The notes under the pieces were generated by a model that ran no database searches, was not told the origin of the DNA, and saw only the letters and a program-made list of their open reading frames with translations. Both the position numbers and the translations under genes were made by a program. Of a stretch of 33,129 nt of DNA, positions 12,374 to 33,129 are shown piece after piece. The stretch is from Acidobacteriota bacterium. GTDB taxonomy: Bacteria > Acidobacteriota > JAAYUB01. The DNA lies in NCBI GenBank assembly GCA_012517875.1, contig JAAYUB010000155.1, positions 1 to 33,129 of the forward strand. The letters are read 5' to 3'. Every line of letters begins with the position of its first letter. Positions within the stretch are counted from its first letter, which is position 1.

Positions 12374-12384
12374 CAGGAGGATCC

Positions 12385-14258: not shown

Positions 14259-15055
14259 TGGCCAAGCCGCGAGTCGCTTTTTTTGATTTCAGCTGCTGTG
14301 AGGGGTGCCAACTGACTGTCTCCAACTGCGAAGACGAGCTGCTGGATCTCGTGTCGCACATCGACATCGTCAACTTCCGCGAGATCATGACCGAGCGCTC
14401 GGACGACTACGATATCGCCTTCATCGAAGGGTCATGCACCCGCAAGGAGGAAGTGGCCCGCCTGCAGAAGATCCGTGATAACGCCCGGATCGTGGTGGCC
14501 CTCGGCGCCTGCGCCACCATCGGCGGCATCAACTGTCTGAAGAATGTTCACAACCTGGAAGAAGTCCGCCAAACAGTTTATGGAGACCAGTCCCGCTATT
14601 TCCCAACTTGGGAATTCCGCCCCATTGACCAGGTCGTCAAGGTGGATCACCACCTGCACGGCTGCCCCATCGACCGGGGAGAATTTCTCCGGATCGTCAA
14701 GGCCCTTCTGACCGGCCAGACCCCGACGCTGCCCAACTACCCCGTCTGCATGGAGTGCAAGCTGAAGGAAAACGTCTGCCTCTACACCCAGGGGAAAACC
14801 TGTCTCGGCCCCATCACCCGTGCCGGCTGTGGCGCCATCTGCCCCGAATTCGGCGACAGCTGTGTGGCCTGCCGCGGCATGGTGGACCAACCGAACATTC
14901 CCTACATGATCGAGGTGTTGCACGAACACGGCCTGACTTATGAAGAAGCCCGTCAGACGACGAGGATGTTCCTGGGTTACAAGACGTTCCAGGAGAAGAT
15001 CCAGGACGCGGACATCCCGTCCCTGACCGAATCCTTGCCTGAGGGGAAATCATGA
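14258..15055 (+). CDS. hydD: Group 3b [NiFe] hydrogenase delta (small) subunit
   Basis: The small subunit (265 residues) holds the iron-sulfur relay next to the Ni-Fe site. The proximal cluster ligands are visible: CEGC (C14, C17), GAC (C85) and GCP (C136). A second set of cysteines in the C-terminal third (C164, C167, C174, C182, C191, C195, C202, C205) should hold two further clusters. No Tat signal peptide is present, as expected for the cytoplasmic group 3 enzymes. The start codon overlaps the preceding stop by one base (TGATG), and the end overlaps hydA by 4 bases, so translation is coupled. Confidence 0.92.
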   Translation: MAKPRVAFFDFSCCEGCQLTVSNCEDELLDLVSHIDIVNFREIMTERSDDYDIAFIEGSCTRKEEVARLQKIRDNARIVVALGACATIGGINCLKNVHNLEEVRQTVYGDQSRYFPTWEFRPIDQVVKVDHHLHGCPIDRGEFLRIVKALLTGQTPTLPNYPVCMECKLKENVCLYTQGKTCLGPITRAGCGAICPEFGDSCVACRGMVDQPNIPYMIEVLHEHGLTYEEARQTTRMFLGYKTFQEKIQDADIPSLTESLPEGKS

Positions 15056-16356
15056 GCCGCAGCGCCAACGTCACCGTCAACGTCCACCACATCACCCGCG
15101 TGGAGGGCCACGGCAATATCCGGATCAACGTCAAGGACGGCCGCCTGGAGGAGTGCAAGCTCGAGATCGTCGAATCGCCGCGCTTCTTCGAGGCCATGCT
15201 TAAGGGACGGCCCTACTGTGAGGCGCACCACATCAGCTGCCGGATCTGCGGCATCTGCTCGGTAGGCCACACCTGCGCCTCGATCCAGGCCAGCGAGGCC
15301 GCCCTCCGGGTGACGCCCACCGAGCAGACCACACGGCTGCGGAAGATCTGCCTTCACGGCGAAACCCTGCAGTCCCATGTTCTCCACGCCTACTACTTGG
15401 CCGCCCCCGACTTCTTCGGCGTGGGCAGCGTGTTGCCCCTGGCGGTCTCTCACCTGCCGGTGGTGCAGCGGGCGCTCCGGCTCAAGAAGCTCGCCAACGA
15501 CCTGTGCGCGGCGGTTGCCGGACGCCACGTCCACCCAGTGTCCATGGCGGTGGGCGGATTCACGAACGTGCCGGATCTCAACAGATTGAAAGAAGCGCAA
15601 CAGCGCCTCATCGCCGCCCGTGAGGATTTACGGGAAACGGTGGAACTCTTCAAGTCCGTCCGGGACAAAATTCCTGCGTTCGACCGCCCCACGGAGTACA
15701 TCTCCCTGACCCGGGACGACGAATACGCATTTCTCAACGGCGACATCCTCTCATCGGATGCCGGCCGGGTGCCGGTGGGCGAATATCTGAAGATGACCAA
15801 CGAATTCATCGTGTCCCACTCGTCCGCCAAGCACACAAAAGCCAAACGCGACAGCTTCATGGTGGGCGCGCTGGCGCGGTTCAACAACAACCACGCCCGG
15901 TTGCGGCCTGAGGCAAAGCAGGCGGCAGCCGCCCTGGGCCTCCGGGCCCCCTGCCACAACTCTTACATGATCACGGTGGCTCAGGTCGTGGAGTGCGTGC
16001 ACTGCCTCGAGGACGCGATCGAGCTCATCGACACAGTGCTGCGGCGGGGCGTTCGCCGCGAGCCCATCGCGGTGACGCCGCGGGCCGGCCGGGGCATCGG
16101 CGCCACCGAAGTGCCCCGGGGAGTGCTGTACCATGACTACACGTTCAACGCCCAGGGACTGATCGAAAAGGCCAACTGCGTGATCCCGACGGGTCAAAAC
16201 CTGGCCAACATCGAACTGGATATGCGGACGCTGGTGCCGCAGGTTTTGGACAAAAGCCCCGAGGCGATCACTCAGCTCTCCGAGATGCTGGTACGCGCCT
16301 ATGATCCGTGCATCTCCTGTTCCGCGCATTTCCTGAATGTGGAATTCGTGGAATGA
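15052..16356 (+). CDS. hydA: Group 3b [NiFe] hydrogenase alpha (large, catalytic) subunit
   Basis: The catalytic subunit has 434 residues and both nickel-binding motifs: R64-I-C66-G-x-C69-x3-H73 near the N terminus and D418-P-C420-x2-C423-x2-H426 at the C terminus. These four cysteines bind the Ni-Fe(CN)2CO centre. The eight residues after H426 are the expected short extension removed by the maturation protease encoded next. The enzyme should interconvert H2 with NAD(P)H; group 3b members can also reduce sulfur. No hyp genes for metal-centre assembly are in the window, so they must lie elsewhere. It overlaps the protease gene by 4 bases. Confidence 0.95.
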   Translation: MSRSANVTVNVHHITRVEGHGNIRINVKDGRLEECKLEIVESPRFFEAMLKGRPYCEAHHISCRICGICSVGHTCASIQASEAALRVTPTEQTTRLRKICLHGETLQSHVLHAYYLAAPDFFGVGSVLPLAVSHLPVVQRALRLKKLANDLCAAVAGRHVHPVSMAVGGFTNVPDLNRLKEAQQRLIAAREDLRETVELFKSVRDKIPAFDRPTEYISLTRDDEYAFLNGDILSSDAGRVPVGEYLKMTNEFIVSHSSAKHTKAKRDSFMVGALARFNNNHARLRPEAKQAAAALGLRAPCHNSYMITVAQVVECVHCLEDAIELIDTVLRRGVRREPIAVTPRAGRGIGATEVPRGVLYHDYTFNAQGLIEKANCVIPTGQNLANIELDMRTLVPQVLDKSPEAITQLSEMLVRAYDPCISCSAHFLNVEFVE

Positions 16357-16808
16357 GGATCCGGGTCATCGGCGTGGGCAATCTGCTGCTCGGCGATGAG
16401 GGTGTTGGCGTGCACGCAATCCGGACGTTGGAGCAGGTCGGAGTGCCGCCCCGGGTGGAACTGATCGACGGCGGCACGGCCGGGCTGGGGCTGATCGGAT
16501 ATCTGGAAGACGTCGACAAGGTGATCTTTATAGACGCGGCGGACATGGGGCAGTCACCCGGGACGTTTCGGCGGTTTCAATCCGATGAAGTTCGGATACT
16601 GAGCGCGGAGCGGGGACTCTCCTTGCACGAGATTGGTTTGTTCAACGTGCTCGGACTGGCCCGGCAGACGGGCATCTGGCCACCGGAACTTGTCATCTTC
16701 GGGGTGCAACCCGCCACATTGGGGCACACCGTGGAGCTCAGTGACGTCTGCGCCGCCGTCCTTCCGGCTCTGGTCGCGGCGATACAGGCGGAATTTGACT
16801 CTATCTGA
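16353..16808 (+). CDS. Hydrogenase maturation protease (HyaD/HycI family)
   Basis: This endopeptidase trims the C terminus of the large subunit once nickel is in place. The 151-residue protein has the family's N-terminal VGVGNLLLGDEGVG motif and all three expected nickel-sensing ligands: E16, an Asp in IDAAD (D61 or D64) and H92, nearly the same positions as in E. coli HybD. The ATG lies in an ATGA overlap with the hydA stop; an upstream ATG at 16308 would lie inside hydA. It completes the hydrogenase structural operon. Confidence 0.9.
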   Translation: MRIRVIGVGNLLLGDEGVGVHAIRTLEQVGVPPRVELIDGGTAGLGLIGYLEDVDKVIFIDAADMGQSPGTFRRFQSDEVRILSAERGLSLHEIGLFNVLGLARQTGIWPPELVIFGVQPATLGHTVELSDVCAAVLPALVAAIQAEFDSI

Positions 16809-16845
16809 ACAAACGGAACAATCCGACCATACTTCGGAGGTTGCG

Positions 16846-17250
16846 TTGGCTAAAATTCTGATCATCGATGACGACTTCGACATCGTGGAAGCCATGAAGA
16901 TGACCCTGGAAACCCGCGGGTACGAAGTCTTCACCGCCTTCGCCGGATCCGAGGGATTGAACCGGGTGAAGGAGGTCTCGCCCGACCTGATCATTCTCGA
17001 CGTGATCATGGAAGACGACACCGCAGGCTTCAAGGTCTCATGGGCCTTGCGCAGCGCCGACCCCAAGTCGGAATACGCCGCCTATCAGCGCACTCCGCTG
17101 CTGATGATCACTTCAATCGCCGAGAAGAAGGGGATGAAATTCGACCCGAAGACGGACGGTGACTTCCTGCCCGTGGATGAATTCATCTCCAAGCCCGTGT
17201 CACCCAAACAACTGCTGGAGAAGGTGCAAACTCTGCTCCTCCGGCGATAG
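16846..17250 (+). CDS. Single-domain response regulator (receiver only)
   Basis: This 134-residue CheY-like receiver has the acidic pocket (IDDDFD), phospho-acceptor D52 in LDVIMED, T90 and K117 in FISKP. The loop between strands 3 and 4 is longer than in CheY, a variant seen in receivers next to histidine kinases. There is no output domain, so it must act through protein contacts. The start is TTG at 16846, 5 bases after CGGAGG (16835-16840); no ATG is available, as the preceding in-frame sequence lies in the protease gene. The gap to the protease gene is 37 bases and the kinase follows after 12. It is the only gene here that ends with TAG. Confidence 0.85.
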   Translation: MAKILIIDDDFDIVEAMKMTLETRGYEVFTAFAGSEGLNRVKEVSPDLIILDVIMEDDTAGFKVSWALRSADPKSEYAAYQRTPLLMITSIAEKKGMKFDPKTDGDFLPVDEFISKPVSPKQLLEKVQTLLLRR

Positions 17251-17262
17251 GACACAGCTCGA

Positions 17263-18609
17263 ATGGATATCAAAGATCTTCCCCTGAAGAGTGAGCTGCC
17301 GGAGCGCATCCGCTGGTTCGTCCGACTGCGCTGGTTCGCCGCCACCGGGACTGTACTCCTGGGGTTGGCGGGACGCTGGCTGATCCCGGGACTCAACACG
17401 ACGCCGCTGTTCTACATCGGCCTGGCCATCCTGCTCTACAACCTGGTTTTCCGCCAGCTGCGCCGGTGGCTGGACGCCCGCCTGAGCATCCACCTGCAGA
17501 TCATCCTGGACTGGCTGGCCCTGACTGCGCTGTGCCACCTGACGGGGGGGGTGGACAGCCCGTTCATCCTGTTCTTCCTGCTGCACGTTGTGCTGTCATC
17601 CATCCTGGTGTCGCGACGAGAGTGCTTTCTACAAGGGCTCCTGGCCATTGTCATGGTCAACGGGATGACGCTCCTGGAGATGCTGGGCATTTGGCCGCTT
17701 CCCGACTTCCCGGCCATTCCCGTTCTGCCCCATTACGAAAATCCGTCGTATTTGCTGGTTTTCCTCTTCTCCTTCAACGCGATCATTCTTTTCATCATCT
17801 ACCTTTCCACCTTCCTCGTCCAGCAACTGCGCCGGCGGGAGGCCAATCTACTGGAACTGCAGGACACCCTGCAACGCGCGTACACCGATGTCGTGAAAAT
17901 GGATGAGGCCAAGACCCGGTTTTTGCGGGTCGTGAGCCACGAGATCCGCGCCCCCTTGGCAGCCAGTCAAAGCCTGCTCCAGGTGGTGCTGGAAGGATAT
18001 GCAGGTGATGTCAGCGCTAAAGCCCGGGAGATGATCGGCCGGGCTGACCACCGGATGACGCAGCTCCTCGAATTCATCAACGAGTTGCTCGACCTGGCGC
18101 GCGGCAGCCAGCGGATGCCCGAAGAAGACAAAAACGATATTCTGGTCTACGAGTCGATCTCCCGGATCGTAAAAGAGATGGAAGCCAAGATGGCCGAGAA
18201 GGGGCTTCGCCTCAGCATCCAGATCGAGCATCCCAACGTGATCTTCCGCGGCGACCTGCAGGATCTGGAGCGCATTTTCCACAACTTGCTCGGAAACGCG
18301 ATCAAGTACACCCCCGAGGGTGGTGAGATTGCCGTGATCGGCACGCTGCTGCCCGACAACTTCTTTCTCTTCAAGATCTGCGACACGGGCATCGGCATTC
18401 CGCCTGCAGAACTCCCGCGGGTGTTCGACGAATTTTTCCGTGCCACCAATGCAAAAAAGGAGCTCAAGACCGGCACCGGCCTCGGCTTGTCCATCGTCAA
18501 AAAGACGGTTGAGAAGTACGGCGGCCGCGTAGAAGTAACCAGTGATTTGGGTACAGGCTCCTGTTTCAGCGTTTACCTGCCGGTCATCGCTCTGGATCGG
18601 CTCACCTGA
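17263..18609 (+). CDS. Membrane histidine kinase, RegB/PrrB-like sensor region
   Basis: This 448-residue kinase has about six membrane segments in residues 20-185, then HisKA with the H box SHEIRAPL (H226) and a HATPase domain (N345 in NLLGNAIKY, DTGIGIP at 374-380, GTGLGLS at 404-410). The membrane part contains LTGGVDSPF (93-101), which closely resembles the GGxxNPF ubiquinone-binding heptapeptide of RegB/PrrB redox kinases, with Asn replaced by Ser. Redox sensing of the quinone pool would fit a position directly after a hydrogenase operon, but that is inference. The preceding receiver gene is its likely partner. Hydrogenase, receiver and kinase may be one transcript; I see no terminator between 16808 and 17263. 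Confidence 0.88.
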   Translation: MDIKDLPLKSELPERIRWFVRLRWFAATGTVLLGLAGRWLIPGLNTTPLFYIGLAILLYNLVFRQLRRWLDARLSIHLQIILDWLALTALCHLTGGVDSPFILFFLLHVVLSSILVSRRECFLQGLLAIVMVNGMTLLEMLGIWPLPDFPAIPVLPHYENPSYLLVFLFSFNAIILFIIYLSTFLVQQLRRREANLLELQDTLQRAYTDVVKMDEAKTRFLRVVSHEIRAPLAASQSLLQVVLEGYAGDVSAKAREMIGRADHRMTQLLEFINELLDLARGSQRMPEEDKNDILVYESISRIVKEMEAKMAEKGLRLSIQIEHPNVIFRGDLQDLERIFHNLLGNAIKYTPEGGEIAVIGTLLPDNFFLFKICDTGIGIPPAELPRVFDEFFRATNAKKELKTGTGLGLSIVKKTVEKYGGRVEVTSDLGTGSCFSVYLPVIALDRLT

Positions 18610-18736
18610 GCACCGCCACCGGCAGCCAGTCAGGCATCTGGCGATGTGCCCCCCGAACCGCATGCGGTGCGTTCCGTATAACCAGTTGTTCAGACTCCTC
18701 AAGACGATGGCCGACTATCGATGAAGGAGAGTAAAC

Positions 18737-18766
18737 TAAACTGGACATCCAGGCATCTTAAACTGG
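18737..18766 (+). repeat. Direct repeat TAAACTGG upstream of the barrel-gene promoter
   Basis: TAAACTGG occurs at 18737-18744 and 18759-18766, 22 bases apart (about two helical turns), with the near-palindrome CTGGACATCCAG overlapping the first copy. The second copy ends 19 bases before the -35 element at 18786, a usual place for an activator. Confidence 0.4.
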
Positions 18767-18785
18767 GGATTGTGTGCACGCGGGA

Positions 18786-18815
18786 TTGACTTGTCCGGAA
18801 AGGGATTGATATAAT
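18786..18815 (+). promoter_or_regulatory. Sigma-70 promoter of the outer-membrane barrel gene
   Basis: TTGACT (18786-18791) and the perfect consensus TATAAT (18810-18815) are 18 bases apart. Transcription should start near 18822, so the leader is only about 15 bases and consists of little more than the ribosome-binding site AGAGG. Confidence 0.75.
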
Positions 18816-18836
18816 ATTTGCAAGAGGTTGGGCAAA

Positions 18837-20618
18837 ATGCCAGGCGCGTGGAAAAAACTCCCGAGCACGGTTGGCCTGATCCTGTTGCTCGTGTCTTGTC
18901 AGTTGGCGCCTCTGTGGGCGGCGCCGGGCGGATCCGTTTCGATTCTGGAAGGCATCGTCCGCAACGAATCCGGCACGCCGCTGGTGGGTGCCGTGATTTC
19001 CCTGTTCAAGGAAAACTGGACCGACAAGCCGCTGTTCACGGTCAAGTCCGGCCGTGACGGCGCCTTTTCCCTCAGCGATGTCAAACCGGGCCGGTACATC
19101 ATCAGCATCGTCAAATCCGGATACGAGCCCACCTCCTACAGCATCCTCGCCCCCCTGCAGAACAACCCCCTGTTCGTCATCCTGAAAAACCTGTCGTCCG
19201 ACGAGCAGAATACCGGCAATTGGGACGTGGCCACCGTCCTGCGCTCATCGAAGGACCGGGGCCTGATTTTCCGCGCCTCCCCCAACGCTCCGGAGCCGCC
19301 GCCCGGCCGGCGGCTGCTCACCGAGACGGACAAGAAATCGACCGGTCGCAGCGGCCAGGTTCAGTTCACCACCTCCCAGCCGCTCAATCCGCTGGGATAT
19401 TCCGTGTGGCCCAATCCCATCGGCACCGGGTTTTCCACCCGCTTCGCCTACGTGGAGCCGCTGGGCGGCAACAACAGCTACGTCGTCACCGGTCTCCTCA
19501 CCACCGGGACGGACAGCCAGTACCGCCTCAAGAACATCGTCAACTATCACGTGTCCGATAAGCACAAGCTTCAGCTGAACCTGAGCTACAACAAGGCGGG
19601 CGAAAAGGCCCGGGCCATCCATGATCTGGGCGGGGTCGACGCCAACGCGCTGGAAAACGACATTCTGAAAACCATTGAGCCCATCCAGAACATCAGCGTC
19701 GGCATCCAGGATTATTTCAAGATCGCCGAACCGCTGACACTGGTCTACGGCTTCGACATCGATTACTCCAAGAGCAACCGGAAAGCCGCCCACATCAGCC
19801 CGCGGTTCCAGGTCTTCTTCAATCCCGTTGAGGACCTGTCGTTCCGATTCCAACTCAACAGCGACCGGGTGTCCCACGATCAGACCATCACCCTGCCCGA
19901 GGGCGACCTGATCTCGCTTCACACGCCGCTCAACATCGCCAAAATCAACAACAGCGCGTTCACCAACCGGGTGGATCACATGGAAGCGGGGCTCAACTTC
20001 TTTCTCGGCGACAACACCAATCTGGAAGTCAGCTCCTTCCTTGACGAAGTCGCCGGTTCCGGCTACCCGTTCGTGGCCATCCTGAAGAGCCCGGGGACCG
20101 GCGTCACCCAGTTCCCGCTTGTCCCCTCCGATATGGCCGAATCGCAAGGTTTCCGGTTCAACCTCACCCATTCGTGGACCCAGTCGATCAGCACCTCGGT
20201 CCTCTACATCTACGGTTCCGGGGCCGAGCTGACGCCGGCCGGTTTGCAGAAACCCGCCATATCGGATCTGTCGACCCAGATCAACAACCGATATTTCAAC
20301 GTGCTTGCGGCATCGATCAACGCGCGTTTCGAGAAAACCGGCACCGACCTCACCGCCATCTACCGCCGGGCCGATGGCAACCCGCTGGCGCCCATCGATG
20401 CCTATTCCGACTTCTACGACGTGACCGACAACTCCCTCAGTGTGTTTGTCCGCCAATCCATCCCCCTCTTCGAGACATCCATCGGCAAGTGGGAAGCGAT
20501 CGTCGATATCCGCAACATCCTGAACCAGGGAGTTCAGGTGTACGAGACCACCTCCGGTGATCTGATCCTCGTCCGGGCACCCCGGACACTCCGCGGCGGC
20601 ATCAGCTTCCGCTTCTGA
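18837..20618 (+). CDS. Outer-membrane beta-barrel protein with carboxypeptidase-regulatory-like domain
   Basis: This 593-residue exported protein has a signal peptide (about 1-28, ending PLWA), a carboxypeptidase-regulatory-like beta-sandwich (about 33-115, 'GIVRNESGTPLVGAVISLF..DGAFSLSDVKPGRYIISI'), a linker, and about 430 residues of alternating amphipathic strands ending in the C-terminal Phe of outer-membrane barrels (ISFRF). It resembles the TonB-dependent transporter-like proteins common in Acidobacteriota, but is shorter, and I see neither a TonB box nor a plug domain. It may be a reduced transporter or a surface adhesin-like barrel. The ATG at 18837 fits the AGAGG site; a TTG at 18828 is too close to it. 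The substrate is unknown. Confidence 0.75.
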   Translation: MPGAWKKLPSTVGLILLLVSCQLAPLWAAPGGSVSILEGIVRNESGTPLVGAVISLFKENWTDKPLFTVKSGRDGAFSLSDVKPGRYIISIVKSGYEPTSYSILAPLQNNPLFVILKNLSSDEQNTGNWDVATVLRSSKDRGLIFRASPNAPEPPPGRRLLTETDKKSTGRSGQVQFTTSQPLNPLGYSVWPNPIGTGFSTRFAYVEPLGGNNSYVVTGLLTTGTDSQYRLKNIVNYHVSDKHKLQLNLSYNKAGEKARAIHDLGGVDANALENDILKTIEPIQNISVGIQDYFKIAEPLTLVYGFDIDYSKSNRKAAHISPRFQVFFNPVEDLSFRFQLNSDRVSHDQTITLPEGDLISLHTPLNIAKINNSAFTNRVDHMEAGLNFFLGDNTNLEVSSFLDEVAGSGYPFVAILKSPGTGVTQFPLVPSDMAESQGFRFNLTHSWTQSISTSVLYIYGSGAELTPAGLQKPAISDLSTQINNRYFNVLAASINARFEKTGTDLTAIYRRADGNPLAPIDAYSDFYDVTDNSLSVFVRQSIPLFETSIGKWEAIVDIRNILNQGVQVYETTSGDLILVRAPRTLRGGISFRF

Positions 20619-20646
20619 CGCAGCTCCATCCCACCGATTTCCCGAC

Positions 20647-20672
20647 TCCCGGTTCAAGGAACATTTCCGGGA
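20647..20672 (+). terminator. Possible terminator or regulatory hairpin after the barrel gene
   Basis: The arms TCCCGG (20647-20652) and CCGGGA (20667-20672) enclose a smaller inverted repeat GTTC-AAG-GAAC. No T run follows. It also contains a GTTCAA unit like those of the downstream operator. Confidence 0.35.
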
Positions 20673-20704
20673 ACAAATCTGTCCACATCAAGCCGATCCG
20701 ACTT

Positions 20705-20730
20705 GTTCAATATATTGAACCCCTGTTCAA
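20705..20730 (+). promoter_or_regulatory. Likely enhancer/operator: perfect palindrome plus half-site
   Basis: GTTCAATATATTGAAC (20705-20720) is a perfect 16-bp palindrome. A further GTTCAA lies at 20725-20730, 20 bases after the first, and another at 20652-20657, 53 bases before it. These spacings are close to two and five helical turns. The palindrome centre is about 144 bases upstream of the start point predicted from the sigma-54 promoter, the normal place for an NtrC-type activator site. Confidence 0.6.
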
Positions 20731-20830
20731 ATTATTGTAAAATATGTTTCGGAATTTTGGATCAGCGGCTAGCATCCCGAATAACCTGATTGTTTTCAGT
20801 TTATTGGAATAGCCGTTACCAGCGCGTTCA

Positions 20831-20846
20831 TGGCATGGGTCTTGCG
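20831..20846 (+). promoter_or_regulatory. Sigma-54 promoter of the kinase/NtrC operon
   Basis: TGGCATGGGTCTTGCG matches the -24/-12 consensus TGGCACG-N4-TTGCW with exact spacing; only the sixth and last positions differ. The start point would be near 20857, leaving about 22 bases before the ATG at 20879. The operon itself encodes a sigma-54 activator. Confidence 0.72.
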
Positions 20847-20878
20847 GCAATTTTCACAGCAGCAGCGCAGAAGGAAGC

Positions 20879-23754
20879 ATGAGCCATCCCACCCTGACCG
20901 ACAAGCTGAAAGTATACGGGCTGTTGCTGGTGGGTTTGGGCTTTCTGACCGCCGGAATTTTTAACATACGCGACCGGATCAGCTGGAACGACCCGTCCGA
21001 CGGCATCGCCTGGATCGAGCGCGATGAAGGCGTGGTGGTCCTCACGGTGACCGGCGAGCAGCCCCTGCCGGATGTCCAGCCCGGCGACACCCTGCTGCGC
21101 ATCAACCAGCACGAAATCCTCAACATGGGCGACTACACCGACGTGCTGTTCCTGCTCAACCCCGGCGAGACGGCCCATTACTTCCTCAAAGACCGGTCCA
21201 CCGGCGACGTCAAGGAGATCCGCCTGACGATCCAGCCGAAGCCGGTCCTGGCCATGAAGGACTTCTTCCGGATCATCGTTGCCTTCGTCTACCTCTGCGT
21301 GGGTGTCCTGATCCTGGTCAAGTACTGGCGCAGCCGCGGCAGCATCCACTTCTACCTGGTGTGCCTGTTCTCGTTCTCGCTGTATCTGTTCAGTTACATC
21401 AACCGGCTGCAGCCGTTTGACTATCTGGTGTACTGGATCTCGGTGGTCTCGACCCTGTTGCTGCCGCCCCTGTTCCTGCACTTCAGCATGAACTTCCCCA
21501 CCCGCAAGAGCTGGCTGCGGACCCATTCCCCGGTGATCCTCTTCATCTATCTCCCGTTTGTGTTCCTGCTGGGCCTGCAGATTTTCTGGTTCGCCGGCCG
21601 GCTGGCGTGGATCGGCCTGCCCCGCACCCTGTCGGCCCGGATCACTCTGGACATCGTCCACCTGATCTATTTCAGCCTGTTTTTTCTCGGCGGTCTGACG
21701 CTGCTGTTCATCTCGCGCTACAGCTCCGAATCCACCGAGCTGCGTCAGCAGATGAAGTGGATTGTCATCGGCACCACGCTCTCGCTCGTCCCGTTCTTCT
21801 TCTTCTACGTCCTCCCCTTCCTGCTGAACCTCGACATCAACCCGCTGATGCAGGCGTCCATCCTGTGCCTCATCTTCCTGCCCATTTCGTTTGCATACGC
21901 CATCGTGAAGTACCGGCTGATGGACGTGGACATTCTGTTCAAGCGCGGCGCGGCCTATTTCATCGCCAGCGCCGCCGTCTTGGGCATCTACTTCCTGCTG
22001 ATCGGTCTCAGTGGCGTGATCCTGCAGTTCTTCTTCCCCGAATCCAACACCTTCGCCATCGCCATCTCGGCGCTCGTGGTGGCCTTCTTGTTCGCGCCCA
22101 TCCGCCGGCGGGTCCAGCAGGAGATCGACCGTTTCTTCTACAAGGACGAATACAAATACCGTCAGTCCCTCATCGAGTTCGGCCACACCATCAGCACCGA
22201 AAGCAGCATGGAGACCATCACCTCCGCGATCATCGAGCGCGTGAACAAGTCGCTGAAGGTGGAGACGGTCGCCATCTTCCTGCGCTACCCGCAGGAGCCC
22301 GAGCAATATGACCTGCTGGCCTACCGCGGCCTCCGGCGCCCCCTGCCGCCCCGCCAGCGGTTCACCATTCCCGATGCCTTCCTGATCACCGGGGTGAACG
22401 TTCCCACCCTGCCCTTCACCATCATCGAGGAGGAAACCCGCCCGGAGAATCTGGCGCTGCGGGACGAGTACGCCCGGCTGTCCCTGTTCTACTTCCAGCC
22501 CATGGCGCACCGCAACGAGACCATCGGCGTCATCGCCCTGGGCAAGGGGCCCCAGGAGACCTTCCTGTCCTCCGAAGACCTGGAGCTCCTGAGCATGATT
22601 GCCGGCTACGCCGCCATCGCCCTGGAAAACTCCCGGCTCTACTCCACCCTCCAGGCCAAGGCCCACGAGCTCGAGGCGCTCAAGGCATACAACGAGAACA
22701 TCGTCGAGGGCATCAACGTCGGGGTCGTGGTCGTGAGCAACGACGGCATCATCACCACCTGGAACCAGGCGATGGTCCAGCTTTACTATCTGCCGGGCCG
22801 GCAGGCCATCGGCCGCCGGCTGGAGGAGGTGTTTGCGCCCGACCTGTCGGCCACCATCCGCAACGCCTTTCCCGCGGACTCCTACACCACCAGCGACACG
22901 GCCAACTTCTACAAGCTGTTCCTCGAGAACCGCCGCGGCGACAAGCGGTTTGTCAACCTGACCGTGAGCCCGTTCGTCCGGGAAACCGGCCAGGTGGCCG
23001 GGACGCTGCTGGTGTTCGACGACATCACCGCCCGCGTCCAGCTTGAGACCCAACTGCTCCAGGCGGAGAAGTTGTCGTCGCTGGGCCTCATCGCCGCCGG
23101 CGTAGCTCACGAGGTGAACACGCCGCTCACCGGCATCAGCAGCTTCACCCAGATGCTCATCGACGAGACCGGCCAGAACCACCCCCATCACACCATGCTC
23201 AAGAAAATCGAAAGCCAGTGTTTCCGGGCGTCCGAGATCGTCCAGAACCTGCTGAACTTTGCCCGGGTGCAGACCACCGAATTCGGCTCCGTCTCCCTCA
23301 ACGAGCTGCTGCAGGAGTCGGTGGCCCTCCTGGAGCACCAGTTCACCAAGAAGACCATCGCCATCCGCATGGATCTGGCGCCGGACCTGCCGCCGGTGCG
23401 CGGTAATGAGGGCCAGCTCATGCAGGTGTTCGTCAACATCCTGCTCAACGCCCGGGATGCCGTCCCCCCGGGCGGACACATCGACATCCGGAGCCGCTTC
23501 GGCGACGGCTTCGCCGTGATCCAGTTCGAGGACAACGGCAAGGGGATCCCGCCGGAGATCCGCCAGAAAATCTACGATCCGTTCTTCACCACCAAGGAGG
23601 TGGGCCAAGGGACGGGACTCGGCCTGTCCGTGAGCTACGGCATCATCCAGGAGCACGCGGGCCGTATTTTCGTGGAGAGCGAACCGGGTCAGGGCACCCG
23701 GTTCACCATCAAGCTGCCCGCGGCGGAACCCGCCGCGAAGGAGGCGTCCAGCTC

Positions 23755-23758
<4 letters not shown>
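20879..23758 (+). CDS. PDZ/GAF/PAS membrane sensor histidine kinase
   Basis: This large kinase of 959 residues has an N-terminal membrane helix (about 12-29), a PDZ-like domain (about 50-112, 'VQPGDTLLRINQHEI'), about eight membrane segments (about 135-420), a GAF domain (about 440-600), a PAS domain (about 612-725) and HisKA plus HATPase domains of the NtrB class (H744 in AHEVNTPLTGI, the N box near 856, DNGKGIP near 885, GTGLGLS near 910). The kinase part looks complete. The PDZ domain sits outside the cytoplasm by topology and may bind unfolded or C-terminal peptides, pointing to envelope sensing; this is inference. It overlaps the regulator gene by 4 bases (ATGA), so the two form a two-component pair. 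It is driven by a sigma-54 promoter. Confidence 0.9.
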
Positions 23759-25158
<1,400 letters not shown>

Positions 25159-25172
25159 GCCGGATCCGCCCC

Positions 25173-25191
25173 GTCACGGCAGCGGCGTGAC
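25173..25191. terminator. Small hairpin between convergent genes
   Basis: A 6-bp stem (GTCACG / CGTGAC) with a 7-base loop lies in the 51-base gap between the convergent NtrC and Rnk-like genes. There is no T run on either side, so the terminator role is weakly supported. Confidence 0.25.
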
Positions 25192-25209
25192 CGGCCCGAC
25201 CTCGCCGCA

Positions 25210-25626
25210 TCACAGGTGGAAATCGCCTGCCGCCTCCGGCTGGTACAGGATCTGTTCGATGCGGATGCGGCGGGTGCCGCCCGGCACCGGCCATTCGATG
25301 ACATCCCCGACGGCGTACCCGATGATGGCGGTGCCCACCGGTGCCAGGACGGAGATGGCGCCGGCGCCGATGTCCGCGTCCTTCGGGAAGACCAGCGTGT
25401 AGGTAATCGTCTCGTTTGAGTCCAGGTCGCGCAGGATCACCCGCGAGTTCATGGTCACGACGTCGGGCGGAATCCGCTCGGGCGGCACAATCTTGGCCCG
25501 CGCCAGCTCCTTGGCCAGGTTCCGCAGGTCCTGCCGGTTACGGTTGGTGACATCCGGGGTGGCGGGCAGGATTTTCTCCAGCCGCTCCCTGTCGTACTCG
25601 GTGATGAAGATTCTTCTCGGTTGCAT
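25210..25626 (-). CDS. Rnk/GreA-GreB family regulator (nucleoside diphosphate kinase regulator type)
   Basis: This 138-residue protein has an N-terminal helical region (about 10-45, 'EYDRERLEKIL...QDLRNLAKELARA') and a C-terminal GreA/GreB FKBP-like domain (about 48-130) with 'VTMNSRVILRDLDSNE', 'TLVFPKDAD' and 'ISVLAPVGTAIIGYAVGDVIEW'. The short N-terminal helical part, unlike the long coiled coil of GreA, marks the Rnk class, which binds RNA polymerase. The start is ATG at 25626 because GAGG lies 5 bases upstream; GTG at 25632 overlaps that site. It lies downstream of the AMMECR1 gene with a 109-base GC-rich gap. Confidence 0.85.
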   Translation of the reverse strand: MQPRRIFITEYDRERLEKILPATPDVTNRNRQDLRNLAKELARAKIVPPERIPPDVVTMNSRVILRDLDSNETITYTLVFPKDADIGAGAISVLAPVGTAIIGYAVGDVIEWPVPGGTRRIRIEQILYQPEAAGDFHL

Positions 25627-25735
25627 GCTCACCTCTTGCTCCCGAACCTCCGATCCGCTGGCCGCCGCGTGCGGCCGGTGATGCGTCCGGCTGGCCGCCC
25701 GGGGCGGCTGGGCGCCGGCCGCGGCTGTCGACGGA

Positions 25736-26290
25736 TTATGCCTCGGATTCGCCGAAGACGTCGGCGGTGAATGCCTGGATGCGCGCGCCCTTGCGCCATG
25801 CGTCGTCGGGCAGGCCCGCCTTACGGCAGGTGTGGCGCAGAAACTCCTCGCGGTCCCAGCCGTACTCGGTGGCCACCTGGGGCAGCAGCAGCCCGCGGCG
25901 GAAGCCGGTGGAGATCAGCAGGCCGTCGCGGCCCACGACGATCTCCGCCAGGTCGGCCACGTCGCGCATGGGCGAGAGCACCGAGATCTCGATGGTGATC
26001 GCCGCCAGTTCGTCGGGCGCCACGGGCGGGAAGCGCGGGTCGTGGCTCGCCGCCGAGACGGTGCAGTCAACGATGGTTTCCCACAGCGGCTTGATGGCCT
26101 CGACGTAGCCGATACAGCCGCGCAACTCCCCGCCCCGTTTCAGGGTGACGAAGGCGCCGCAGGGGAGTTCCAGCTCGGGGTGCGCCGGCCGGTAGGCGTC
26201 GCTCGCCTGTTGCCGCCGCACGTGGGCGTGCAAAGTCTTGCGCGCGAGGAACAGGCACTCCGTCCGGATGTCATTCGACAGAGGGTTCAC
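25736..26290 (-). CDS. AMMECR1-domain protein (AmmeMemoRadiSam system protein A type)
   Basis: This 184-residue protein is a single AMMECR1 domain: the signature LRGCIGY (about residues 56-62) follows 'PCGAFVTLKRGGE', and the later 'DPRFPPV', 'ITIEISVLSP' and 'GLLLPQVATEYGWDREEFLRHTCRKAGLP' blocks are all typical. The molecular function of the family is unresolved; in many bacteria it is encoded with a MEMO-like protein and a radical SAM enzyme. Neither partner is in this window. The GTG start at 26290 has GGAGG 6 bases upstream and lies 20 bases inside pgsA, so the two genes are translationally coupled. Confidence 0.88.
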   Translation of the reverse strand: MNPLSNDIRTECLFLARKTLHAHVRRQQASDAYRPAHPELELPCGAFVTLKRGGELRGCIGYVEAIKPLWETIVDCTVSAASHDPRFPPVAPDELAAITIEISVLSPMRDVADLAEIVVGRDGLLISTGFRRGLLLPQVATEYGWDREEFLRHTCRKAGLPDDAWRKGARIQAFTADVFGESEA

Positions 26291-26897
26291 TGCGGGCCTC
26301 CCGGATCACCCGGTTCTGCCGCCGCTGGAACAGCTTGCGCTTCAGGCGGATCCGCTTTTTGCGATGCGCGTCGATCTTGCGCCAGAACACGAAGAAATAA
26401 TGCACCATGCTGCTGACCGCGATCACCAGCACCAGCCAGAGCGAGATCTTCCCCAGCAGCAGCCAGATCCCGCCGAACCGCGCCCCGGCCAGGATGAGGC
26501 AGACCGCCACCACCTGGAAGACCATCTTGGTCTTTCCCAGCGCCGACGCCCGGATGATCAGCCCTTCCGACGAGGCCAGGTTCCGCAACCCGGTGACGGC
26601 GAACTCGCGGCCGATGATGATCACCACCATCCAGGCCGGCACCAGATGAAGCTGGACCAGAATGATGAAGGCCGAGGTGACCAACAGCTTGTCGGCCAGG
26701 GGGTCCATCAGGATGCCCATGGTGGTGACCTGGCGCCGCCGGCGGGCGATGTAGCCGTCCAGGACGTCGGTCACCGACGCCGCGAGGAACAGCCCGATCC
26801 CCCAGATCTCCTTGTTGGGAAACTCGGTGAGGAGCACCGTCACCAGGAAGGGGATCGAGAAAATCCGCAGCAGCGTGAGATAATTGGCCAGATTCAT
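26271..26897 (-). CDS. pgsA: CDP-diacylglycerol-glycerol-3-phosphate 3-phosphatidyltransferase
   Basis: PgsA makes phosphatidylglycerol phosphate in the inner membrane. The 208-residue protein has several membrane segments and the complete CDP-alcohol phosphatidyltransferase motif D-G-x2-A-R-x8-G-x3-D-x3-D (DGYIAR ... G ILM D PLA D, about residues 46-68). The N terminus MNLANYLTLLRI is the classic PgsA start. ATG at 26897 with GGAG 4 bases upstream is chosen; the open frame continues upstream to 27125 but is low-complexity Arg/Pro sequence. The C-terminal tail is very basic. It overlaps the AMMECR1 gene by 20 bases. Confidence 0.93.
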   Translation of the reverse strand: MNLANYLTLLRIFSIPFLVTVLLTEFPNKEIWGIGLFLAASVTDVLDGYIARRRRQVTTMGILMDPLADKLLVTSAFIILVQLHLVPAWMVVIIIGREFAVTGLRNLASSEGLIIRASALGKTKMVFQVVAVCLILAGARFGGIWLLLGKISLWLVLVIAVSSMVHYFFVFWRKIDAHRKKRIRLKRKLFQRRQNRVIREARSEPSVE

Positions 26898-26953
26898 CGC
26901 GCTCCACACGCCGGCCCGGTTCGCTGACGGCCCGGCGCCGACGGCTTGTTTCC

Positions 26954-26983
26954 ACCATATCACACCGGCCGGGGCCCAGGCAA
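26954..26983 (-). promoter_or_regulatory. Possible sigma-70 promoter of pgsA
   Basis: On the reverse strand TTGCCT (26978-26983) and TATGGT (26954-26959) are 18 bases apart. The leader would be about 50 bases. It is the only AT-containing patch in this gap. Confidence 0.35.
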
Positions 26984-27086
26984 GCCGGCGCGCCCCATCC
27001 CGCGGCGCGGGCAGCGGACGGTCGGCGGAAGGGCCGGTCGACCGCCGCGGCCCGTTCGCCGCGCCGACCGGCGGGCGCGCGACGCG

Positions 27087-27114
27087 AAAAAAAACCCGGC
27101 AACCGCTTGCCGGG
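27087..27114 (-). terminator. Intrinsic terminator of the protease operon
   Basis: Read on the reverse strand, CCCGGCAA and TTGCCGGG form a perfect 8-bp stem with a GCGG loop, followed directly by eight T residues (27087-27094 on the forward strand are all A). It ends the transcript coming from the secreted-protein gene. Confidence 0.9.
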
Positions 27115-27237
27115 TCTCTCATCATGATGGCGGATATTGCGTTCCGCCGATCCCCACCTCACTCACCCATCAAACCGGAATATCCGCAACCGTCGGGCGG
27201 CCGTCCGCTGTGGGGACCGTCCCGGCGGCCGGTTCAC

Positions 27238-27777
27238 TTACTCGGTGATGACGATCTGGGCGGCCGCGCCGCAGGCGTCGTCCGCGCCGTCCAGGTGCGC
27301 GGTGATCCGCCACTTGCCGTACAGCCCATTGCTGGTGATCAGGGTGCCGCCCACCGGGAAGGGAACGTCCACCCGGTAGAACCGCTGGTTCAGGTACGAG
27401 ACCTCCTGGGGGATCACCACCTTCTTGGCCCGCGGGTAGCCGGGGAGGGTACGGGTCTGCAGGCCCTGCGCCTTGGCCGTGCCCGGCGAGGCCACCGGCA
27501 CCGCCAGCTCCTGGTACAGGCTGCCGTTGGGCGTGTACACGCGGAGCGCCAGCCGGTGCTCGCCCGTGAACGTGGTCGGCAGCAACACCGACAGGGTCAG
27601 GTCCACCGTCCGACTGGCCGAGAACTTGCTGGCGTAAGCATTGGTGTTTTCCTCGGGCGAGCTGGCCAGCACGTAGGCGCACGGCTTGGCCGTGACCTTG
27701 TCGACTTCAACCGCGGCGCCGGAGGCGGGCAGGGCCAGGGCGCCGATGATCAGCAGGGTGGTTACGATGTTGCGCAT
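27238..27777 (-). CDS. Small secreted protein of unknown function
   Basis: The 179-residue protein has a clear signal peptide (about 1-21, 'IVTTLLIIGALALPASGAA') and a mature part rich in beta strands, with one Cys pair (C33, C168) that could form a disulfide across the domain. The 'SVLLPTTFTGEHRLALRVYTPNGSLYQELAVPV' stretch resembles an Ig-like or C2-like sandwich, but I cannot assign a family. Its ribosome-binding site AAGGAGG overlaps the stop codon of the giant protease gene, so the two are translationally coupled; a chaperone, inhibitor or accessory role for the protease is possible but unproven. A terminator lies 124 bases downstream. Confidence 0.75.
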   Translation of the reverse strand: MRNIVTTLLIIGALALPASGAAVEVDKVTAKPCAYVLASSPEENTNAYASKFSASRTVDLTLSVLLPTTFTGEHRLALRVYTPNGSLYQELAVPVASPGTAKAQGLQTRTLPGYPRAKKVVIPQEVSYLNQRFYRVDVPFPVGGTLITSNGLYGKWRITAHLDGADDACGAAAQIVITE

Positions 27778-27787
27778 GATCGCCTCC

Positions 27788-30700
27788 TTAGGGCAGCGGC
27801 ACGCTCACGGCGTACATCACGCCGGTGTCGGTGCCCACGTACACCATTCGGTTCACGTAGTCGTAGGCCGGGCTCCCCACCACCGGCACCGGCGAGGCGC
27901 CGGGCGCCAGTTCCACCGAGGCGTGGGCGCCGGTGGTGATGTTGATCTGGTAGAGCCGCCCGTCGCTTGCGCCCACGTAGATGTAGGACGTGCCGAACAG
28001 GAACAGCGGCGTGGACGGCGACGGGATGTCGGTCACCGCCCAGCGCACCGTGTAGTTGGCGCCGCCGTCGTCGGTGATGCAGTAGACGTTGTTGCTGGTG
28101 CTGAAGAACAGCCGGTGGGGGGTGGCGGTGTAGGTGGGGAACAGGTACGCCTTCACCGGCGTACCCGTGCCCGTGTTGTAGCTCCACTGGGTGGACCCGT
28201 CGGCGGCGTCCAGGCAGTACACCACGCCGGCGTTGGTGCCCACGAACACCCGGCCGTTCCAGACCACGGGCACGCCGTCGATGTCGCCCAAGGGCTGAGA
28301 CCAGACTTTGGCGAACGCCGAGCCGTTGAACGACAGGCACCAGACGGTGTGGCTGGAGCCGCCGCCCTTGGCCCGGCTGGCGAAGTAGACCCGGTTGGTG
28401 TCGTAGTCCACCAGGACGCCGCCGCTGATGATGCCCATGGCGTTTGAGCCGCCGCCGTTGTTGAAGCTGAAGAGCGTGGCCCCGGTGGCCGGGTTCAGCG
28501 CGTAGACCTTGTTTTCGCTCGTGGCGTTGCGCGTGGCGGCGAACACCAGGTCGTAGGCGCCGCCGTACGCGGTGAACATCGCCGACGGCGCCGCCTGGAC
28601 CACCTCGCCCAGCGAGGCGCTCGTCCAGAGCGGCGCGCCGGTCTCGGCGTCAGCGGCGTAGACATAGCCGTCCTGGGAGCCCACGAAGGCCACCTCGTCG
28701 GCACCGGAGACCAGCGCCGTGGGCACCACCGCCGGCCGGTCCTGGGCCGGACCGTTCATGGCCATGGGCTCCCACGTGTAGCCGCCCGCGCGCGGCCAGT
28801 CGCCGCCGGCAGCCGACGGGTTGGTGGCGTGGAGGTTCCGGTCGTTGGACACGGCGTAGACGCCGCCGGCCCCGATGGCGCCCGGGTTGACGCCCGGCGG
28901 CGCCAGCGCCGTGGCGCCGGTGCTGTACGCCCACTTCACGGCGCCGCTCGTGTCGAACGGCCGCGCCGCCACCGTCTTGCCGCTGGAGTAGGCGCTGCCG
29001 TTGTAGACGAACGCCGCATAGTAGTAAGTCGTGCCGTTGGTCAGGCTGAGGTGCTCCAGCGAGTCGTACTCGCCGGCCGTCCCCGCCTGGTCCGCCAGCA
29101 GCGTGCCGTCCGTGGGGCTGGTGGGATACGTGTCGGTCCGATAGCGAATCCGGGTGGTGGTGTAGCTCCCCGCCGGGTTCACCCACTCCAGCTTGTTGCT
29201 TTCATTCGTCGCCGTCGCTGTCAAGTAAACTACATCCGCCGGTGTGCCAGTGCAGGCACCTAGCTGGGCAACGTGGGTGATGCTGATGTCATCCACATAC
29301 CAGCCCTCAGAAACCGTATTGCCGTTTGTTGAGAAATTAAATCGGATAATAATCGTAAGTCCGTTGTAGCTACTCAAACTGACCGAATAACTATTCCATG
29401 TTAGATTGTTCCCAGTAAAACAACCAACTCCGGTCGCGTAGCCGCATGCATCCGCCGAATTACGAAACGTGCTAGGGTATCCTGGTGTCGGCGTCAATTG
29501 CGTCCAACTACTGCCGCCGTTGGTGCTGATTTCAACGACCCCACCGTCATAACGGCTTTGGATATTGAAGGCTGTCCAGAAGCTCAGGGTGGAAGATTGT
29601 CCCGCAGTTAGCGTCAAACTAGGCGTCCGGACGTTGGCGCACAGATTGTTTGAATAGCCCGAGAAATAACTGTAGGTGCCTGAATGTCTCCGGGTGCTGG
29701 AGATACTCCACAAGCCATTCATTGTTAACGTCGGATCCCCAGATTCAGCCCCGGCGCTCCATGTGGTATCTACAATTGGGCCCGTGGACATTCCGGATTG
29801 TTCGACGGTGTTGGATTCAGACACACCATTACTTTCGTCGGTCGCCCGGACAACGTAATAATAGGTAGTCGCCGGCAGCAAGCCATCCGTGTCCTGATAA
29901 GTGGTCCCGGTGATACCCACCGCAATCCGGTTAGACAGGCTCGGGGTGAATCCCGTCGAAGTGCTTCGATATATTGAGTAGGTCACAGGTCCACTGCATT
30001 GCGCGATCGCTGCATCCCAACTCAACTCCAGTGTGCAGCCGGTTCCGCCTGGCGCCGAGACTGAACCCAAGCCATTGAACATTGGTGGTAAATTACATGC
30101 GCCTTGTACTGTGGCTGACGCTTCAACTGAATAACCGGAATCGCAGGCGCTGCTGCCGCTGCCGTACGAGGTGACGACGTAATAGTAGGTGAACCCGCCG
30201 GAAAGGTTGTTGTCGCTGTAATCGGTCGTGGGTGCGCTGACTGTAGATAGTAAGGAGTAAGGCCCACCCGACGTGGTGGAGCGATACACTTTGTATTGAA
30301 CGGCACCGGTCACTGAGTTCCAGTCCAGGTAGATGCTGTTGTTGTTGGCCAATGCACTAAATCCGGATGGGGCACTGAGCGCCAAACAGGAAACGCCGCT
30401 CATCACCAAGGCATACGGCTGGGTGTTGGTGCCGCTGGTGCCGTTGCCCGGCACATTGGTGCCGCGGACGGTGATGCTCCATTCGCCCGATGCCGGCGAC
30501 GACACGTAAACCTGCTCCACGTTGTTGATACTGTCCTGGGTGCCGCCGGTCCAGTCCTTGCGGTTCGGATAGTAGCGGGTGCCGCCAGGTGCGTAGACCT
30601 CGAGGTCCATGTTGTTGATCAGACGGGTGCCGGATGCCGCTGCGGCCCATGGGTCGGTCCAGACAAGGGTGACGATCAGCGGATCGTTGGCGTTGGCGAG

Positions 30701-31138
30701 GTAAAAAGTGTAAGTGTGGGTCTGTCCCGTCTGGAGTCCGGGCGTCACATCGTACACGGCCAGTTTGCGGCTGGCATCATCCCCCCAGCCGGAACCCGGG
30801 AACAAAGAATGTTCCAGGTCCACCCGGCCGAAGCCCTCGGCGTTGTTGGGGAGATCGCGGCCGGTGTCCCAGTCCGGCGGCAGCTCCCGGGTGGTCCCGG
30901 TGCCGTACTGGCCGGGATTCATGTCCCAGGCTCCGTTGATCAGGGTGGCCTTGACCAGGGCTGATGAGGGATTGAACCCGTCAACTGGCACGGCGCTGGA
31001 GTTGGTTGTGGAACTGTTGTTGGGGTGCCAGCCGTCGACGTAGTATTGGCGGACCAGCGTGGATGCTCCGGCGGTCAGCGGATTGGACATCGATGTCCCA
31101 CCCATGTTCACGTAGTACGGCCGCTGAGCGGTCGGCAC
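27788..31138 (-). CDS. C-terminal part of an interrupted multidomain secreted subtilase
   Basis: This part is in the same frame as the upstream fragment and continues it after a single TAG codon. It opens with the missing catalytic serine block, MGGTSMSNPLTAG (S625 counted from the protease start). Then come a P-domain-like beta sandwich (about residues 75-245 of this part), two fibronectin type III-like domains (about 250-345 and 350-445), a MAM/immune-inhibitor-A-like jelly roll (about 455-640), a third fibronectin-like domain (640-730) and a PQQ-type beta-propeller (735-1116) with repeated 'vyclDAadGstqWsy'-like blades. Alone it lacks a signal peptide and a convincing ribosome-binding site (GTG at 31138 is only the first possible start). 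It is therefore probably not an independent gene. Confidence 0.8.
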   Translation of the reverse strand: MPTAQRPYYVNMGGTSMSNPLTAGASTLVRQYYVDGWHPNNSSTTNSSAVPVDGFNPSSALVKATLINGAWDMNPGQYGTGTTRELPPDWDTGRDLPNNAEGFGRVDLEHSLFPGSGWGDDASRKLAVYDVTPGLQTGQTHTYTFYLANANDPLIVTLVWTDPWAAAASGTRLINNMDLEVYAPGGTRYYPNRKDWTGGTQDSINNVEQVYVSSPASGEWSITVRGTNVPGNGTSGTNTQPYALVMSGVSCLALSAPSGFSALANNNSIYLDWNSVTGAVQYKVYRSTTSGGPYSLLSTVSAPTTDYSDNNLSGGFTYYYVVTSYGSGSSACDSGYSVEASATVQGACNLPPMFNGLGSVSAPGGTGCTLELSWDAAIAQCSGPVTYSIYRSTSTGFTPSLSNRIAVGITGTTYQDTDGLLPATTYYYVVRATDESNGVSESNTVEQSGMSTGPIVDTTWSAGAESGDPTLTMNGLWSISSTRRHSGTYSYFSGYSNNLCANVRTPSLTLTAGQSSTLSFWTAFNIQSRYDGGVVEISTNGGSSWTQLTPTPGYPSTFRNSADACGYATGVGCFTGNNLTWNSYSVSLSSYNGLTIIIRFNFSTNGNTVSEGWYVDDISITHVAQLGACTGTPADVVYLTATATNESNKLEWVNPAGSYTTTRIRYRTDTYPTSPTDGTLLADQAGTAGEYDSLEHLSLTNGTTYYYAAFVYNGSAYSSGKTVAARPFDTSGAVKWAYSTGATALAPPGVNPGAIGAGGVYAVSNDRNLHATNPSAAGGDWPRAGGYTWEPMAMNGPAQDRPAVVPTALVSGADEVAFVGSQDGYVYAADAETGAPLWTSASLGEVVQAAPSAMFTAYGGAYDLVFAATRNATSENKVYALNPATGATLFSFNNGGGSNAMGIISGGVLVDYDTNRVYFASRAKGGGSSHTVWCLSFNGSAFAKVWSQPLGDIDGVPVVWNGRVFVGTNAGVVYCLDAADGSTQWSYNTGTGTPVKAYLFPTYTATPHRLFFSTSNNVYCITDDGGANYTVRWAVTDIPSPSTPLFLFGTSYIYVGASDGRLYQINITTGAHASVELAPGASPVPVVGSPAYDYVNRMVYVGTDTGVMYAVSVPLP
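29220..30360. other. Low-GC block inside the protease gene
   Basis: Base composition drops visibly compared with both sides; for example 29320-29420 is mostly A/T with AT-ending codons. The block matches about residues 259-639 of the C-terminal fragment, that is, two fibronectin-like domains plus the jelly-roll domain. The third fibronectin-like domain and the propeller return to GC-rich codons. Boundaries are by eye. Confidence 0.55.
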
Positions 31139-31150
31139 GTTACAGATGCC

Positions 31151-32965
31151 CTATTGTTCGTAGGCCTGGTTCAAGTCGGTCCGGGTCGAGATAATGGCTA
31201 TGCCCGGTGCCGTGATGTCCGGCTTGATGCGTCCATCGTCGCAGGGCCCGCGCGAGGAAAACGCGCCCATCCCATTGGCGTTGTTGGCCATCGGATCCGA
31301 ATAGATCGGCTCGCGGCCGAAATTCGTGCCGTTGAACCAGCCCCACGCCACCTGGGTGAAAGCAGTCCCGGTGCAATCGTTCTCGGGGTACTCGTAGACA
31401 AAATCAGGCCGGTAATTTTCCGATGCGCCGACGGTGATGCAGTTCTTCGCCGTGCCCGGAGATCCGATTGAATCCGTGTCGATCACGCCGCTGGTTCCAC
31501 CAGTGTCCCGGCCCGAGTTGCCGGCCGAAAAAGTGATCACCATGTCCTTATTGTTCCAGGCAAACCTGTCCAGATTTGATGAATCGGTTGAATACTGGCC
31601 GGCGAGCGCGGCGCCCCACGAATTGGAATGCACGCGGGCGCCGTCCGCATAGGGCGGACTGAACAGATTGTTGAGGTCTGCGGGAATCCCGCCAAGTCCA
31701 CCACTGCTGTCCATAACCGACTGGAACACGAATTGCGCCTTGGGCGCAGTGCCGGCGAAACAGGTGGACGGGAACGTGTTCGTGTTCGGCGTGGAGCCGG
31801 ACCGGAAGCCATTGCCCACGATGGAGCCGGAGGTGTGGGTGCCGTGTCCGCCGCCGGTGGTCTGGTTGTCATCCCACGTTGTCCGTCCCAAGGCGTAGCC
31901 TTTGATCACCCGCATGGGATTGGTGCTGGAGCCCTGTTGTCCGTAATCCTGATGCAAGGTGGCCAAATTGCCGGTGGATAGACCCGTGTCTGAAGCCGAC
32001 GCGATCTGCCCCTCGCCGCGGATGCCCCGGGCCCAAACGTCCTCCACATCCATGATCGGGCCGGCGGTGGCGCCGCGGCCGGTGGTGGTATTGGCCGACG
32101 TGCGGGCGATGTTGTTGTGCAGTTCATGGGGCACAAACCGCTCCACCCAAAAGCAGCCGGGCACGGCGGCCAGGGCGCGCGCCTGCTGGGCTTCACCGGC
32201 AAACCGGACCAGCCAGAAGTCGCCGTTGTGGTCGTAATCCGTGATGTCCAGGTTCACCCGGCTCAACACGTCAAACAGGTCTTCAAAATCCGGATATAGC
32301 AGCGGATCGAAGTGAGCAGTGAATTCCAGCTCTTTCAGCGGATCGGCTTCGATCACCCAATCGAGCTTCGGATAAATCCGGAAGGCCGGCTGGTACAGAC
32401 CCATCCAGAACACCTCGGGACGCTGCTCCAGGGCCTTCCAGCCGGCGGTGTCCAGGCGCACCAGGTAAGCCAGTCGGGGCAGGTAGCCCAGGATGGCGAT
32501 GCCGGACTGTTCCAGATGCTGCCGGAGGGCTGTCTGGCCGTCGGGCGAGTCGGCCTGGACGATGAAGTAGTCCCACGTGCCGGCGGTGAACGGCCGCTTG
32601 ACCAGACTTGGCTGGAAGCTGCCAAGATCAGGGTAGGCAAACGACTTGCGGCCCGCCCGGTCCTTGCTCACCAGGCGGTCGGTGGCGAACTGGAATGCCG
32701 CCAGGTCGATGACATGGTCGCCGGCCGCCTGAAGCTGGTCGGCCGGCAGGTAGCGCTCAGCGAACGGGTGATAGGTCTTCCAGTCGGAGGCGATGAAGAC
32801 CAGCGACTCGCCGGTGGCCGGGTCCACGACCGCGGGAGGAATGACTTTGCGGCCCCCGCCCAGGTTATCCGCGGCCAGCACCGGCAGACAGAAAAGCCCC
32901 GTCAGCAAGGCCAGCATGACCATCGCGCCCAGGATCCGTCCTGTCTTGAAAATATGATCGTTCAT
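31151..32965 (-). CDS. N-terminal part of an interrupted secreted subtilisin-like protease (S8 family)
   Basis: This 604-residue fragment has a signal peptide (about 1-32, 'MVMLALLTGLFCLPVLAA'), a long propeptide-like region (about 35-300) and the first part of a subtilase domain with catalytic D326 (ASDTG) and H374 (HGTHTSG). It ends at a TAG codon (31151-31153) after 'TDLNQAYEQ', 20 codons before the catalytic serine, which is encoded in the same frame downstream. Without read-through the product would lack the serine and be inactive. The ATG at 32965 is used because AGGAGG lies just before it; the ATG at 32980 precedes that site. Together the two parts span 1,725 codons. A nonsense mutation, a sequencing error, or read-through are all possible. 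Confidence 0.85.
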   Translation of the reverse strand: MNDHIFKTGRILGAMVMLALLTGLFCLPVLAADNLGGGRKVIPPAVVDPATGESLVFIASDWKTYHPFAERYLPADQLQAAGDHVIDLAAFQFATDRLVSKDRAGRKSFAYPDLGSFQPSLVKRPFTAGTWDYFIVQADSPDGQTALRQHLEQSGIAILGYLPRLAYLVRLDTAGWKALEQRPEVFWMGLYQPAFRIYPKLDWVIEADPLKELEFTAHFDPLLYPDFEDLFDVLSRVNLDITDYDHNGDFWLVRFAGEAQQARALAAVPGCFWVERFVPHELHNNIARTSANTTTGRGATAGPIMDVEDVWARGIRGEGQIASASDTGLSTGNLATLHQDYGQQGSSTNPMRVIKGYALGRTTWDDNQTTGGGHGTHTSGSIVGNGFRSGSTPNTNTFPSTCFAGTAPKAQFVFQSVMDSSGGLGGIPADLNNLFSPPYADGARVHSNSWGAALAGQYSTDSSNLDRFAWNNKDMVITFSAGNSGRDTGGTSGVIDTDSIGSPGTAKNCITVGASENYRPDFVYEYPENDCTGTAFTQVAWGWFNGTNFGREPIYSDPMANNANGMGAFSSRGPCDDGRIKPDITAPGIAIISTRTDLNQAYEQ

Positions 32966-33002
32966 GTCTCCTCCTGACATCCGAAACCCGACCCCCGATC
33001 GA

Positions 33003-33032
33003 TATATATTTCAAATCCTATTACTGACTCAA
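33003..33032 (-). promoter_or_regulatory. Likely sigma-70 promoter of the protease operon
   Basis: On the reverse strand TTGAGT (33027-33032) and TATATA (33003-33008) are 18 bases apart in an AT-rich patch. The start point would be near 32996, giving a leader of about 30 bases that contains AGGAGG. Confidence 0.55.
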
Positions 33033-33129
33033 TGCCCTTCGTGCGGGTTGCCCTGGCACGGGCCGCCGCCGGCGGGCACCCGGCCGCACGAGGCGGTGAA
33101 GGCCAGCGGCCGGAACGGCTCCAGCCAGC
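33029..33129 (-). CDS. 3' end of a further reverse-strand gene (partial)
   Basis: The frame ending with TGA at 33029-33031 is open to the window edge (32 codons visible) and nearly every codon ends in G or C, as in the real genes here. The visible tail contains two Cys and two His residues ('SCGRVPAGGGPCQGNPHEGH'), which could suggest a metal-binding end, but no family can be named. Other frames of this short stretch are also open, so the call is tentative. Confidence 0.42.
   Translation of the reverse strand, partial: WLEPFRPLAFTASCGRVPAGGGPCQGNPHEGH

Follow-up and report, generated by a model that had tools for sequence, protein, structure and literature searches.

An in-frame TAG in a KP-43-like subtilase gene

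The closest described relatives of the gene reported here are the KP-43 type alkaline serine proteases of family S8 (PDB 1wmd; SubHal, 5fax). The gene lies on the minus strand of the window, the whole stretch of 33,129 nucleotides that was analysed. When the TAG within it was read through, the best solved relatives of the protein were 1wmd (E 2.1e-66) and 5fax (E 2.4e-64). The same Asp, His and Ser motifs were present, and the alignment extended on both sides of the TAG. A literature search returned nothing on this subtilase gene.

The first-pass annotation of the window had placed an in-frame TAG at 31151-31153. The plus strand reads cta there, which confirmed a TAG on the minus strand. It occupies codon 610 in a gene of 1,730 codons whose frame is open everywhere else. 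The open reading frame before it (31151-32980) encodes 609 aa, and the one after it (27788-31138) encodes 1,116 aa from a GTG. The two share an identical frame, as annotated, and reading through the TAG gave 1,730 residues with no other stop. The annotated range, 31090-31160, covered the site and not the whole gene. The features are as follows:

27788-32980, minus strand: large secreted-type subtilase gene, 1,730 codons when read through the TAG, with S8 peptidase domain and Fn3-like, MAM-like and PQQ-type beta-propeller regions
31154-32980, minus strand: upstream piece, 609 aa, with the N-terminal region, predicted Asp331 and His379, and SAGNS (oxyanion Asn) at 485
31151-31153, minus strand: in-frame TAG, codon 610; the column is TGG (Trp) in all seven orthologues
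27791-31150, minus strand: downstream piece, 1,120 sense codons in an intact frame, with predicted catalytic Ser630 and the C-terminal domains
27238-27777, minus strand: small secreted-type ORF, 179 aa, directly downstream of the subtilase, without a confident Pfam family

The 179-aa ORF, associated with the subtilase by position only, is possibly its partner gene.

In the read-through protein, Pfam Peptidase_S8 (PF00082) matched residues 356-698 with 118.7 bits, against a curated cut-off of 21.8. The Pfam search also matched an InhA-like MAM domain at residues 1094-1235 and, towards the C terminus, models of PQQ-type beta-propellers, and an Fn3-like chain of a solved structure matched residues 869-950. 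The catalytic motifs start at 331 (DTGL, Asp), 378 (GHGTH, His), 485 (SAGNS) and 628 (GTSMS, Ser). Following the usual subtilisin assignment, we take the triad to be Asp331, His379 and Ser630. The TAG falls between the predicted His and Ser, and Ser630 is 20 codons past it. These positions agreed with the annotation, which had put Asp and His upstream and GTSMS 20 codons downstream. Its claim of continuous homology was also borne out, the Peptidase_S8 match, the KP-43 alignment and the seven orthologues all spanning the site.

Under the standard code, the three catalytic residues are not on one polypeptide, and Ser is separated by the TAG at 610. Judged from the sequence, the gene is a member of the S8 family by descent, and the product predicted from it falls short of a complete enzyme.

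The GTG at 31138, shortly after the TAG, opens a frame of 1,116 aa. The locus might on this account consist of two genes now, with the downstream part re-initiated at this GTG and the fragments acting separately or together. On the other hand, a protein made from the second piece would lack a signal peptide, the break falls inside the catalytic domain, between His and Ser, and the gene is split in no relative. We regard such a use of the two pieces as barely conceivable.

The interrupted codon in orthologues

Seven orthologues from other Acidobacteriota (L034/L131, L035, L036/L133, L037/L132, L038, L041/L134 and the more distant L109) aligned straight through the site. Unlike the window gene, all of them have TGG (Trp) at the column, in the context EQWG, and the frame is open with no stop. 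Over residues 300-609, six of them showed about 76-83% identity and L109 about 67%. Their open frames, in the DNA examined, ranged from 1,162 to 1,765 codons. The C-terminal propeller is common to L132, L133 and L134, at about 47-50% identity.

Of 396 genomes of the phylum surveyed, 11 gave a match at E <= 1e-60, and none of the matched stretches contained a stop except that of the window's copy. A premature stop that is absent from intact orthologues is what is seen in a nonsense pseudogene.

TAG is one substitution away from TGG. The annotation had explained the TAG by one base change, in a TGG or a CAG codon, and the relatives favour the former; they point to Trp, encoded by TGG, as the ancestral residue. 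Because all seven orthologues have TGG, the TAG is private to this assembly and is not a conserved recoding site. Conserved recoding was ruled out by these codons together with the lack of any other stop in the 396-genome survey.

Use of TAG in this genome

A release factor RF1 was present in the genome (532 bits against a curated cut-off of 423). A second, weaker release-factor match is presumably RF2. The best PylS match, 23.5 bits, was far below the family cut-off of 178.15, and none of the 19 relatives searched had a match over it. Among 14 control genomes, one exceeded the cut-off. The weak matches are presumably other class II synthetases. No CTA anticodon was found among 40 tRNA matches whose anticodons were read with ARAGORN, a search that could miss a strongly non-canonical tRNA-Pyl and whose recovered set had no Asn, His or Ile tRNAs. 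The search for pylT, pylS or an amber suppressor that the annotation had proposed thus found no candidate among the matches over the cut-off or the detected tRNAs.

The ends of long ORFs were tallied in the window and in a further sample of about 200 kb, made up of nine stretches of 20 kb and a contig of 18.7 kb. In this mechanical ORF count, which includes the TAG in question, 106 of 145 ended in TGA, 24 in TAG and 15 in TAA. TAG is a normal stop in this genome. The annotation had called it rare; over the sampled genome it is not markedly so.

Reassignment of TAG over the whole genome was rejected, with RF1 kept and TAG terminating 24 of the 145 long ORFs. The annotation had likewise concluded that the code is not reassigned, and RF1, the stop usage and the absence of PylS over the cut-off and of a CTA tRNA in these searches all supported it. 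Pyrrolysine decoding was rejected as well, there being no PylS over the cut-off in this genome or the 19 relatives and no TAG at the column in the homologues.

The TAG might still be read through, by an amber suppressor, by pyrrolysine or by low-level misreading, to give the full-length protease. This would fit the intact downstream frame and its conserved sequence, and with an incomplete tRNA set the assembly could lack a suppressor tRNA. On the other hand, RF1 is present, no PylS match passed the cut-off, no CTA anticodon occurs among the detected tRNAs, TAG commonly serves as a stop, and the relatives never have it at this column. We consider read-through very unlikely, and its particular form in which a tRNA missing from the assembly suppresses the TAG, giving a conditional full-length protease, more improbable still. 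Read-through and use as a split gene, taken together, carry only a slight probability. The annotation had offered a recent event, an error or suppression; the first two stand, and the RF1, TAG stop usage and PylS and tRNA results make suppression unlikely.

Age of the interruption

The downstream stretch, described in the annotation as about 1,100 codons of intact frame, was counted as 1,120 codons with no second stop. GC3 was 0.80 downstream of the TAG and 0.79 upstream. In the absence of selection, about 97-115 nonsense changes per substitution per site would be expected in the downstream stretch. As none was found, the neutral divergence since the event would be less than about 0.026-0.031 substitutions per site, if the stretch has been unconstrained.

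The pN/pS against the distant orthologues was 0.18-0.25 upstream and 0.31-0.43 just downstream, values that reveal no more than a long-term constraint on the catalytic part and cannot date a recent event. The subtilase gene was also sought in the congener assemblies G001, G002 and G003 to date the event, and it was found in none of them, intact or broken. The lack of a second lesion in the downstream frame suggested that the interruption is young, or that it is not real.

If the TAG is not real, it would have arisen as an error of assembly or consensus calling, or have come from a minority strain whose allele entered the metagenome-type consensus, and the gene would be intact in most cells. 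A perfectly clean downstream frame is expected of a working gene, and a single miscalled base in an undamaged gene would leave the same picture. The assembly comprises 182 contigs, its contamination is estimated at 3.73%, and 13 neighbouring ORFs in the window are open, so that the lesion is isolated. Against this, wrongly called single bases are uncommon in the consensus of an assembly with adequate coverage, and low sequence quality was not indicated by the alignment to the congener G002, with 30 gap columns over 19.4 kb. We hold an error or minority variant to be a possible but doubtful explanation; the TAG is likelier to be real in the cells.

Genome context

The window makes up an entire contig (C155) in the 4.02-Mb genome of an uncultured Acidobacteriota bacterium, estimated to be 95.9% complete and 3.7% contaminated. 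At 61.7%, its GC content is below the 64-68% measured for ten other stretches of this genome. A foreign or mis-binned contig was considered and rejected: G002 matched positions 7603-26988 at 91% nucleotide identity, which makes most of the contig native to the genus. The subtilase lies beyond this match.

In G002 (L130, G002:C98, 1-600), a different small gene follows the CDP-alcohol phosphatidyltransferase (window 26988-27117). That contig stops at a terminator-like sequence resembling window 27089-27117, beside the site of the 179-aa ORF and the subtilase.

In G001 (L136, G001:C160, 1-1468), the sequence that matches window 32980-33129 leads into the start of a different subtilase gene, whose product shows only 32% identity over 145 residues. 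The frame of this subtilase ends at 113-115, and the first ~112 bases of the contig are an unrelated frame, which appeared transposase-like by eye and had no Pfam hit.

By sequence comparison, the protease locus varies between species of the genus, and it may exchange protease genes.

Another subtilase in the same genome (G000:C44) has an uninterrupted open frame of 1,661 aa. This intact subtilase could make loss of the window copy tolerable.

Interpretation and comparison with known systems

We interpret the TAG as probably a recent, ordinary nonsense mutation at a Trp codon, fixed or polymorphic in the population. A single, very recent substitution would have changed TGG to TAG in the KP-43-like gene. 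Ribosomes would stop at the TAG through RF1 and release a product of 609 residues, in which Asp and His are kept and the nucleophilic Ser and all C-terminal domains are lost. This copy of the subtilase would then be an inactive protease.

The case carries little weight in itself, since assemblies from environmental DNA often contain single nonsense mutations and consensus errors. Its value is that of a negative example that has been checked: where a large conserved gene contains an in-frame TAG, RF1 is present, PylS stays below the cut-off and the relatives lack the TAG, the codon should not be taken for a recoded one.

Compared with the KP-43 type proteases, the window protein has about four times the length and carries Fn3-like, MAM-like and PQQ-propeller regions at the C terminus, and its gene is interrupted by the TAG. 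Ordinary bacterial nonsense pseudogenes are likewise interrupted by a single in-frame stop that only one genome carries, the rest of the gene being intact. The window gene differs from these in having no second lesion yet, as expected of a very young one, if it is real.
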